From Fuerstiella sp. (lineage in GTDB: Bacteria > Planctomycetota > Planctomycetia > Planctomycetales > Planctomycetaceae): a stretch of DNA of 64,000 nt. Below the pieces are notes generated by a model. That model was given only the letters and a program-made list of their open reading frames with translations, was not told the DNA's origin and ran no database searches. The stretch's first letter is position 1, and the number at the start of each line of letters is the position of its first letter. Where the stretch lies: NCBI GenBank assembly GCA_022447225.1, contig JAKVAZ010000001.1, positions 248,001 through 312,000 of the forward strand, given 5' to 3'. Shown here one piece after another: positions 2,569 to 17,880 of this stretch. A program made the translations under genes and the position numbers.

Positions 2569-3174
2569 TCACTGCGATTCGTCATACAGTTTATGCTCTG
2601 TGAGAAAGACCTCGACAGACCGAGGCGTAAGAAATCGCAGTCCTCGTCCGTCTCGTACACGATTTCGCAGATCTGTTCCTGAGATGTCCGTTCCCGGCAT
2701 CGAAAGCAGGCGGATTCGTGACGTATCCAGCTCTCCGGTCAGTCTCTGGATCCCGTCGGGTTCCGGCAGCGTGTGCCCAGGGCGATTGACGGCCAATACC
2801 ATGGACAACTGCAGAATTCTGTCGGGTTTATGCCATGTTGGAAAATCTTTGAGTGAATCTGCACCCATCAGAAAGAACAGTTTCGAGTTTTGCACTTCCT
2901 GCCCGATTTCTTCAAGCGTATCAAACGTGAATGACGGCCCTGACCGTCGAATTTCTCGTCGATCCACTGTGAACTCGGGGTAACCGGAAACGGCCAGTTT
3001 CACCATGTCAGCTCTTGCGTGACCGTCGGAGATCCCGGTAGTTTTGTGAGGCGGATTTCCTGCCGGTACGAAGCGGACTTCGTCGAGCGCCAGTTCCTGT
3101 CGGCAGGTTTCTGCCAGCATCAGGTGACCGTAATGAATCGGATCAAATGTTCCGCCGAAGATCCCAATTTTCAT
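2569..3174 (-). CDS. nadD: Nicotinate-nucleotide adenylyltransferase
   Basis: NadD joins nicotinate mononucleotide and ATP to give deamido-NAD in NAD biosynthesis. The start at 3174 was chosen because the protein then begins MKIGIFGGTFDPIHYGHL, the classic N-terminus with the (H/T)xGH nucleotidyltransferase motif. An upstream ATG at 3243 in the same frame would add 23 unconserved residues. Further signs are the phosphate-handling loop FFLMGADSLKDFPTWH and the ISGTDLRNRVRDG motif (usually ISSTxxR) near the C-terminus. The length of 201 residues is typical. It lies upstream of asd on the same strand, with 156 bases between, and is divergent from uvrB. Confidence 0.93.
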   Translation of the reverse strand: MKIGIFGGTFDPIHYGHLMLAETCRQELALDEVRFVPAGNPPHKTTGISDGHARADMVKLAVSGYPEFTVDRREIRRSGPSFTFDTLEEIGQEVQNSKLFFLMGADSLKDFPTWHKPDRILQLSMVLAVNRPGHTLPEPDGIQRLTGELDTSRIRLLSMPGTDISGTDLRNRVRDGRGLRFLTPRSVEVFLTEHKLYDESQ

Positions 3175-3365
3175 AAAATTGTCCGATATGCTGTCAGGCT
3201 CAGGGTGAACTGTGACCATCCCGGCGGCCTTCAGCCGGAACACAACCCAATGTAGGATAAGCCCGCGGCATCCATGACGTTGACTGATGCGGGCATTGTT
3301 CGCTTTTGCTGGAGCTACGTTAGTCGCAATGAGGTACTTTCACCATTCCTGGAATTTTATCCCAA

Positions 3366-15292: not shown

Positions 15293-15491
15293 ATTCACGG
15301 CATACATCTGACACTGCAAAAATTTTCTGTATTCTTCTGATAAGACGATGGAATCAGGTCAGAACGGGTGCCGGTTTACTGATGTCGGCAACTCGATTCG
15401 GTTTCGTTTGGTGTTCCTCGTGGCACATTTTGTGTCAGGCTATTATGCTCAACGTTGTGTTGTCCTCCCGAGTTTTTCAGCCAGTTTTCCG

Positions 15492-16373
15492 ATGTCTACA
15501 GACGCCAACTGCCTTCCCGGCATGATGCTTCACGCTCAGCAATATCTTGCACGTGTCGAAAACGTGCGCGAACTGGCACGTGATACCTGGGCCGTGCAGA
15601 TACGTCAGCCGGAACTGGCTCAGCGAATCACCCCGGGGCAGTTCTTTATGATTCGTCCGGAATCCGGCAGTGATCCGCTGCTGGGTCGGCCGTTCGCACT
15701 GTACGACACTTATTCGGATGATGACGGTCGACCCGTCGGAGTTGAATTCGGGTATGTGGTCGTCGGCAAACTGACTTCAATAATGAGCAACTGGCAGCCT
15801 GGCACCAGGGTCGTCCTGTGGGGACCACTGGGAAACGGATTCCCCGTGCCGACTTCCAGACGTCTGCTGTGTGTCGCCGGAGGGATCGGGCAGACACCTT
15901 TTCTGGCTGTGGCCAGAGAAGCTCTGGGGCTGCAAACATACGGTCATCCGGTGCGGACAATGATGCGGAAGCCGGATAATGTGACGCTGTGCTACGGCGT
16001 GAGGTCTGCTGACTATGCCGCCGGCCTGGATGACTTCAGTCAACCTGGACTTACGGTTCAGGTGGCCACTGACGACGGAACATTCGGACACCACGGTCTC
16101 GTGACGGATCTGCTTAAGGAACAATTTACTTTGGGAACATCTGAAGTACATGTCTATTGCTGTGGTCCGGAACCTATGATGAAAGCTGTTGGCGACATTT
16201 GCCTGGCTGCGAATGTTCCCTGCTGGTTATCACTGGAAACTCCCATGGCCTGTGGTTTTGGAGCCTGCTTCAGCTGTGTGACCAAAGTCAAACTCGGCGA
16301 AGGAGAATGGGACTACCGTCGAACCTGTATCGAAGGTCCCGTATTTCCTGCTGAACAGATCATTCTCTCGTGA
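15492..16373 (+). CDS. pyrK: PyrK-like dihydroorotate dehydrogenase electron-transfer subunit
   Basis: PyrK proteins carry FAD and a [2Fe-2S] cluster and pass electrons from dihydroorotate dehydrogenase type 1B to NAD. The 293-residue protein has a ferredoxin-reductase-like FAD domain ([21 protein letters not shown]), then an NAD-binding domain ([30 protein letters not shown]), and a C-terminal cysteine cluster CGFGACFSC...C ([15 protein letters not shown], then YRRTC), which is the PyrK iron-sulfur arrangement. The start at 15492 was chosen from domain alignment; an ATG at 15348 would add 48 unconserved residues. No pyrD lies within the window, so the partner is encoded elsewhere, or this is a PyrK-like oxidoreductase with another partner. 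Confidence 0.85.
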
Positions 16374-16504
16374 TGTGATCGACCGGAGTTCCACACTCTC
16401 CTGGTGCACCTCGCTGGCGATCTCGTAAGTCTGCATTAGAATTCCGTCATGGTGCGGGTCAGGTGACACGTACTTTTACGACGGCCTCTGACAAAGGAAA
16501 AACC

Positions 16505-16855
16505 ATGGTCAGTCAGGTTGACTGGAGCTACCACCGGAAGGGCTGAACTTCCTGTACTCGTGCGCAGGAGTTTCTTGCGACTCAGAATATTACTATCGCG
16601 ACACAGATCGACGCGAAGAAGGAACGCTATGGTGCCGACGATGCAATTGTCCTGCTGAAAGGCATGACGAAAATGTTCGTCGCCAAAGGCAGGAAGGTTA
16701 CCGAGGTTGACCTCACAAAAGATCGTCCCTCCGATGACACACTGGCCGGGATGATGCTTGGTCCAACCGGTAATTTGCGTGCACCCACACTAAGAGCCGG
16801 CAAAACGATATTAATCGGCTTCAATGCGGATGCGTATGAATCCGTATTGAGCTGA
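16505..16855 (+). CDS. ArsC-family selenoprotein with UxxC motif (in-frame TGA = Sec14)
   Basis: A single frame runs from ATG 16505 to TGA 16853-16855, interrupted only by TGA at 16544-16546 (codon 14). Before the TGA it reads VDWSYHRKG, and after it TSCTRAQEFLATQNIT. The TGA thus falls exactly where thioredoxin-fold ArsC/Spx-type proteins have the first cysteine of CxxC, giving UTSC. The later part (KGMTKMFVAKGRKVTEVDL, GPTGNLRAPTLRAGKTILIG) is intact and ends with the normal cis-Pro region. I recall a planctomycete 'ArsC family (seleno)protein' of this length and pattern. A ribosome-binding site (AAAGGA) sits 7 bases before the ATG. A hairpin fitting a bacterial SECIS lies at 16563-16579. 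Expected function: selenol-based thiol redox chemistry; substrate unknown. An ordinary caller would report only the stub starting at 16664. Confidence 0.85.
16563..16579 (+). promoter_or_regulatory. Candidate bacterial SECIS hairpin
   Basis: CGCAGG (16563-16568) pairs with CTTGCG (16574-16579), with one G-U pair, around the five-base loop AGTTT. The loop starts 22 bases after the TGA and has G as its second base. Both points fit the known bacterial SECIS pattern: a loop about 16-37 bases downstream with a G in its first two positions. A competing hairpin (16547-16554 with 16565-16571) is possible. Confidence 0.6.
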
Positions 16856-17088: not shown

Positions 17089-17880
17089 ATGAAAATTGCA
17101 CGTTTTGATACTGACGGACAGGTTCATCACGGAATTGTCGAAGAGGATGTGATTACTCAGATTGAAGGTGACGTATTCGGAGATTTTTTTCTGACCGAAA
17201 TGACTCACTCTTTGCAGGCAGTGAAACTACTGGCACCGGTAGTGCCGTCGCAAATGTTTGGCCCCGGCGTCAATTTTGAGGCTCACCTCGAAATGGCTTC
17301 AGTGATCACCGGCAACACACAGATGCTGCCGACTCCTGAACCATGGCTTAAAGCGATCAATTCCCTTTCGAGTCCCGGCGCGGCCATTGTCATTCCGTAC
17401 GACTCTAAAGCCGGTGTGGAATACGAGGGTGAGTGCGTTGCAATCATCGGTGCCACAACACGCCGGGTCGATCCGGATGAAGCGTGGAACAGAATCCTGG
17501 GCTATACCTGTGGAAACGATATTTCCGAACGCGACTGGCAGGTCAACGACTCTTCAACGTGGCGAGGTAAAGGCGCCGACAGTTTCGGTCCCATCGGTCC
17601 CTGGATTGAAACAGACTTCGACCCCCGCGGCGGCGGCGATATGATTGTTCGCATCGATGGCAATGAAGTGGATCGCGTGACCACAGCCGACATGTACTAC
17701 GACTTTGGCGAAGTCATCAGCTTCATCAGTCAGCATGTCACACTGAAGCCGGGCGATGCCATCTGGTCCGGAACAGCAGGGCACCCGGAAACGTTGCAGG
17801 CCGGACAGGTTGTTGAGGTTGAGGTTACCGGCATTGGAGTACTTTCCAATCCGGTTGTGGCCGAACCGTATTCCGGTTAA
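17089..17880 (+). CDS. Fumarylacetoacetate hydrolase family protein
   Basis: The 263-residue protein has the FAH C-terminal fold. Metal-site segments are VEYEGECVAIIG (the E-x-E pattern), then GYTCGNDISERDWQ, KGADSFGPIGPWIET, and GDAIWSGTAGHPETLQAGQVVEVEVTGIG near the C-terminus. An N-terminal beta domain (MKIARFDTDGQVHHGIVEED) matches the 2-hydroxyhepta-2,4-diene-1,7-dioate isomerase / ureidoglycolate lyase-like subgroup. Members cleave C-C bonds in 2-keto or 1,3-diketo acids, or decarboxylate oxaloacetate, with Mg2+ or Mn2+. No pathway neighbours are present to fix the substrate. Confidence 0.88.
   Translation: MKIARFDTDGQVHHGIVEEDVITQIEGDVFGDFFLTEMTHSLQAVKLLAPVVPSQMFGPGVNFEAHLEMASVITGNTQMLPTPEPWLKAINSLSSPGAAIVIPYDSKAGVEYEGECVAIIGATTRRVDPDEAWNRILGYTCGNDISERDWQVNDSSTWRGKGADSFGPIGPWIETDFDPRGGGDMIVRIDGNEVDRVTTADMYYDFGEVISFISQHVTLKPGDAIWSGTAGHPETLQAGQVVEVEVTGIGVLSNPVVAEPYSG

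Follow-up and report, generated by a model that had tools for sequence, protein, structure and literature searches.

Is the TGA at 16544-16546 the end of a short reading frame, or is it a sense codon within a longer gene? The question arises in a stretch of 64,000 nucleotides (hereafter the window) from the genome of a Fuerstiella-like marine planctomycete, and the evidence gathered below leads us to conclude that this TGA very probably serves, as judged from sequence comparison, to insert selenocysteine (Sec) at the active site of a small protein with a thioredoxin fold.

The reading frame and its family

Under the standard code, the list of open reading frames contains only 16664-16855 at this place, encoding 63 amino acids. 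Reading through the TGA gives a gene at 16505-16855 (forward strand), whose translation, MVSQVDWSYHRKG-U-TSCTRAQEFLATQ...GPTGNLRAPTLRAGKTILIGFNADAYESVLS, comprises 116 amino acids including one Sec. Between the ATG at 16505 and the terminal TGA at 16853-16855, the TGA at 16544 (codon 14) is the single in-frame stop; the first-pass annotation had claimed this and had expected a gene caller to report only the last 63 codons, and both statements agree with what we found. The same annotation had placed a ribosome-binding site before the ATG, which is confirmed by a Shine-Dalgarno-like AAAGGA at 16493-16498 (forward strand), 6 nt 5' of the ATG and kept in the copy of a genome of the same genus (G100). 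Codon 14 forms the first position of a UTSC redox motif (16544-16555, forward strand), which is closed by Cys17 (16553-16555), the second and putatively resolving cysteine, invariant in the alignment of 59 sequences (A1). Elsewhere in the window, 26 candidates for an in-frame TGA adjoining a Cys codon were found; by eye, only the gene at 16505-16855 looked protein-like, and the remaining candidates are taken as chance.

Comparison with the copy in G100, which keeps the TGA, revealed 28 synonymous and 13 nonsynonymous codon differences in codons 28-116 (10/5/32 by codon position), and three synonymous and no nonsynonymous differences in codons 15-27. Since these changes are mostly synonymous and in third positions, the part 3' of the TGA is, by this pattern of substitution, translated and constrained. 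Codons 1-13 differ more (2 synonymous, 5 nonsynonymous) and show no synonymous excess in this short part alone; W7, Y9 and R11, which lie 5' of the TGA, are invariant across the family.

The encoded protein matches the NCBIfam model NF041106, "ArsC family (seleno)protein", over its full length (model positions 1-107 of 107; 139.6 bits, E 5e-41, cut-off 85) and Pfam ArsC (PF03960). As the [U/C]xxC signature of NF041106 demands, position 14 is always U or C, Cys17 is invariant, and the motif reads UTSC here; with a score far above the cut-off, the UxxC motif and the occurrence of both Sec and Cys forms, no essential difference from this family can be seen. This kind of protein is already known: a table of 2006 includes ArsC-like selenoproteins (PMC1794560), a UxxC "arsenate reductase 2" was described from ocean metagenomes in 2008 (PMC2398784), and a selenoproteome review of 2026 lists NF041106 as "arsenate reductase-like protein" with the motif UxxC (PMC13188914). 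The window gene is therefore a further member of an already catalogued selenoprotein family. By its description, arsenate reductase 2 of the Global Ocean Sampling selenoproteome (cd03032, PMC2398784) resembles the window protein in its UxxC motif, ArsC-type domain and marine origin. Among the papers searched, none deals with Fuerstiella together with selenocysteine.

Selenocysteine and cysteine at codon 14

The first-pass annotation had noticed that the TGA lies exactly where the first redox cysteine belongs and proposed an alignment of codon 14 with homologs, expecting Cys or Sec. The NF041106-type family occurs in 61 of the 170 genomes examined from the order, and in the 61 fully read gene copies, the window gene included, the aligned codon is TGA (31 copies) or TGC/TGT (30 copies) and nothing else. 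A 62nd copy with a disturbed start was excluded from these counts; it is a second family copy in genome G002 (locus L075, contig C29, match near 2938-3285), possibly a degraded paralog with a disturbed N-terminal frame. The closest named relative is a protein of 84% identity from a Fuerstiella sp. metagenome-assembled genome (MAG). Elsewhere, too, the Sec form dominates, with 75 Sec and 5 Cys forms at 80 named loci; as these were obtained as best matches to a Sec protein, the sample is uneven. The record titles of these loci include Planctomycetota, Acidobacteriota, Gemmatimonadota, Melainabacteria, Rokubacteria, Methylomirabilota, Zixibacteria and Myxococcota; such MAG titles can be wrong, as that reading "Klebsiella" probably is. 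On a tree of 83 proteins, 10 changes between Sec and Cys are required, at least 7 of them forced by well-supported branches; the protein is short, many forks are unresolved, and the changes are counted irrespective of direction.

The check for selA, selB, selC (tRNA-Sec) and selD proposed earlier found all four in the source genome (5.43 Mb, 97% complete). The tRNA-Sec (70.8 bits) scores above the Rfam cut-off, carries the anticodon UCA and is called tRNA-SeC tca by ARAGORN, and the profile scores are 347.7 bits for selB, 508.3 bits for selA and 227.2 bits for selD. The genes for SelB, SelA and a SelD-containing protein of 752 amino acids adjoin each other on the contig of the window, beginning about 45 kb past its end. 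In the latter protein (L084, contig C1 of the same genome, 8042-10300, forward strand), encoded directly after selB and selA, the SelD domain lies in the C-terminal half, and the N-terminal half looks by eye like a domain of the NADH-dehydrogenase/FAD type. Across the order, selA scored above the cut-off in all 31 genomes with TGA vs 8 of the 29 genomes with Cys (Fisher p 5e-10, kinship not corrected for). The eight genomes in which selA is present and only the Cys form was found (G058, G076, G078, G081, G083, G107, G108, and G158) are natural cases in which the Sec machinery persists alongside a Cys form.

The hairpin downstream of the TGA

The SECIS-like hairpin that had been proposed 3' of the TGA was located at 16563-16579 (forward strand), CGCAGGA-GUU-UCUUGCG, with a stem of 7 bp and a GUU apical loop at 16570-16572. 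It begins 16 nt after the TGA, with a distance of 23 nt from the UGA to the loop; if the U of UGA is numbered 1, nucleotides 20-26 pair with 30-36 and 27-29 form the loop. This geometry agrees in loop, stem, G position and spacing with the rules quoted for bacterial SECIS elements, i.e., a loop of 3-9 nt, a stem of 4-16 bp, a G at loop position 1 or 2 and a distance of 16-37 nt from the UGA (PMC13188914). The energy, -7.1 kcal/mol for the bare helix and -8.4 kcal/mol for a 21-nt segment with flanks, is at the edge of the published limit of <= -7.5 kcal/mol. When the window sequence 3' of the TGA was folded by itself, the hairpin did not reach significance (z -0.5 to -1.3), and a scan of the window at Rfam gathering thresholds gave no match, where Rfam may hold no bacterial SECIS model. 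The hairpin is thus supported by comparison with relatives and not by single-sequence folding.

This comparison is consistent in several respects. Folding was better than in synonymous shuffles, for which codons were drawn according to their pooled frequencies in these genes, at p<=0.05 in 19 of 31 Sec copies vs none of 30 Cys copies, counts that are not independent because the copies are related. A hairpin energy of <=-6 was reached by 42 of 50 Sec copies vs 4 of 33 Cys copies. At +8, within the stem, Glu is encoded by GAG in 27 of 27 cases, whereas GAG makes up 42% of the Glu codons elsewhere in these genes. In a set of 31 distinct sequences from several phyla, picked from one Leu-codon class, two pairs vary on both sides (G-C to U-A, A-U, C-G; A-U to G-C), and the covariation score exceeds all 500 shuffles as well as all slid registers. 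In lineages with other Leu codons at +10, the hairpin takes a second register, whose loop is the tetraloop AGUU. Several Sec copies from other lineages lack a GUU/AGUU hairpin in a simple scan (L127, L134 and L174, and also L096, L105 and L106), so that not every Sec copy has the element in this form; these copies may use another form of SECIS. After UxxC, they have another sequence in common, e.g., KRADSFLEG.

Could the TGA be anything other than a Sec codon? A frame broken under the standard code is what a nonsense mutation or an assembly artefact in a Cys gene would produce, yet 31 copies within the order, like the majority of members from several phyla, have TGA in this very position, it is shared among independently assembled genomes, and third-position changes dominate 3' of it, which leaves a pseudogene or sequencing error with next to no probability. 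That translation stops at codon 13 and restarts at ATG 16664, which does start a standard open reading frame, to give a separate protein of 63 amino acids is highly improbable as well: codons 14-53, with the redox helix, lie 5' of that ATG and are conserved as protein, and the thioredoxin core of the shorter product would be without its first half. Insertion of another residue by general recoding or suppression would account for the open frame only; as the gene's own terminal stop is TGA, the aligned residue is otherwise Cys only, tRNA-Sec and SelA/B/D are present and the hairpin is conserved, we regard this explanation as scarcely credible. The claim of a selenoprotein is instead supported by a codon 14 that is Sec or Cys only, by tRNA-Sec with SelA, SelB and SelD, and by the established family NF041106; at the level of sequence, these comparisons establish a Sec codon, the machinery for it and a conserved hairpin, and insertion of Sec is nearly certain to the extent that sequence data can show it.

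Fold and probable role of the protein

An AlphaFold2 model based on 59 window and locus sequences (pLDDT 93.5, pTM 0.85) predicts with high confidence a thioredoxin core whose nearest neighbors are Spx/ArsC-related proteins. Spx structures are the best matches in the PDB (E 1.5e-4, TM 0.54, rmsd 6-7 A), in agreement with the profile search, where most of the best matches are Spx; small glutaredoxin-like proteins reach a TM of up to 0.75 over their own length. Beside U/C14 and C17, the residues W7, Y9, R11, G62, G86, G89, R92, P94 and G105 are invariant in alignment A1 (59 sequences), P94 probably being the cis-proline. In the model, Sec14 is placed just before helix 15-26 and Cys17 in the first turn of this helix, positions that would fit a selenol/thiol redox pair. 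Clustering of the gene neighborhoods of about 60 loci revealed no widely recurring partner, only small clusters confined to close relatives, so that gene context names no substrate. The upstream neighbor in the window (15348-16373, forward strand) encodes dihydroorotate dehydrogenase B iron-sulfur and NAD-binding domains and the downstream one (17089-17880, forward strand) a fumarylacetoacetate hydrolase family protein; neither recurs beside the relatives.

As to function, the label "ArsC family" given by the first-pass annotation stands as a statement of membership (NF041106, Pfam ArsC), while its reading as an arsenate reductase is weakened. A true arsenate reductase with Sec in place of the catalytic Cys would accord with the Pfam ArsC match and the name "arsenate reductase-like" (PMC13188914). 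The selenoprotein form of ArsC-type arsenate reductases shares with the window protein the ArsC superfamily and Sec at the catalytic position, but the motif reported for it is UxxS (PMC1088965), and arsenate reductases of the CxxS/UxxS type have no resolving Cys at the fourth position, whereas the window protein has UTSC with an invariant Cys17. The best profile and fold matches are, moreover, mostly Spx and not proven arsenate reductases, and a lack of conserved neighbors means that there is no arsenic operon; arsenate reduction as the function is not supported, and we consider it improbable. An Spx-like redox-switch regulator binding RNA polymerase would agree with the best matches, and the Spx/MgsR regulators (TIGR01617) have in common with the window protein the thioredoxin core and an N-terminal CxxC, which in Spx aligns at the same place. 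They have Cys instead of Sec, and the middle region of the window protein differs in the model, being predicted as one helix and a beta-hairpin; the TM-score is only about 0.54 with an rmsd of 6-7 A, and the score on the Spx/MgsR model is 28.7 bits, far below the cut-off of 75.05, which makes such a regulator unlikely. Rather improbable, too, is the proposal that NF041106 proteins are Spx-related, selenium-based redox switches that target transcription or a single specific partner, and not general oxidoreductases; if it were true, gene control in Planctomycetota would depend on selenocysteine.

Taking all of this together, we have strong confidence that the product of the gene, likely a thiol/selenol oxidoreductase in redox maintenance, is a small stand-alone selenoprotein from the ArsC/Spx branch of the thioredoxin fold, with SECIS-directed Sec14. 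In the mechanism that we propose, SelB carrying Sec-tRNA(UCA) would bind the hairpin at 16563-16579 inside the coding sequence, in consequence of which TGA 16544 would be read as Sec, and translation would end at TGA 16853. The attack would come from the selenolate of Sec14, where helix 1 begins; Cys17 would supply the resolving thiol, and the selenenylsulfide formed between the two would presumably be re-reduced by a cellular thiol system.

Since gene callers cut such genes short, the confirmed frame corrects the annotation of this locus. The family offers a clean comparative system, with repeated Sec/Cys exchange within one order and a SECIS hairpin mostly missing from the Cys copies, which could be used to examine the advantage that selenium confers on proteins that are otherwise alike.
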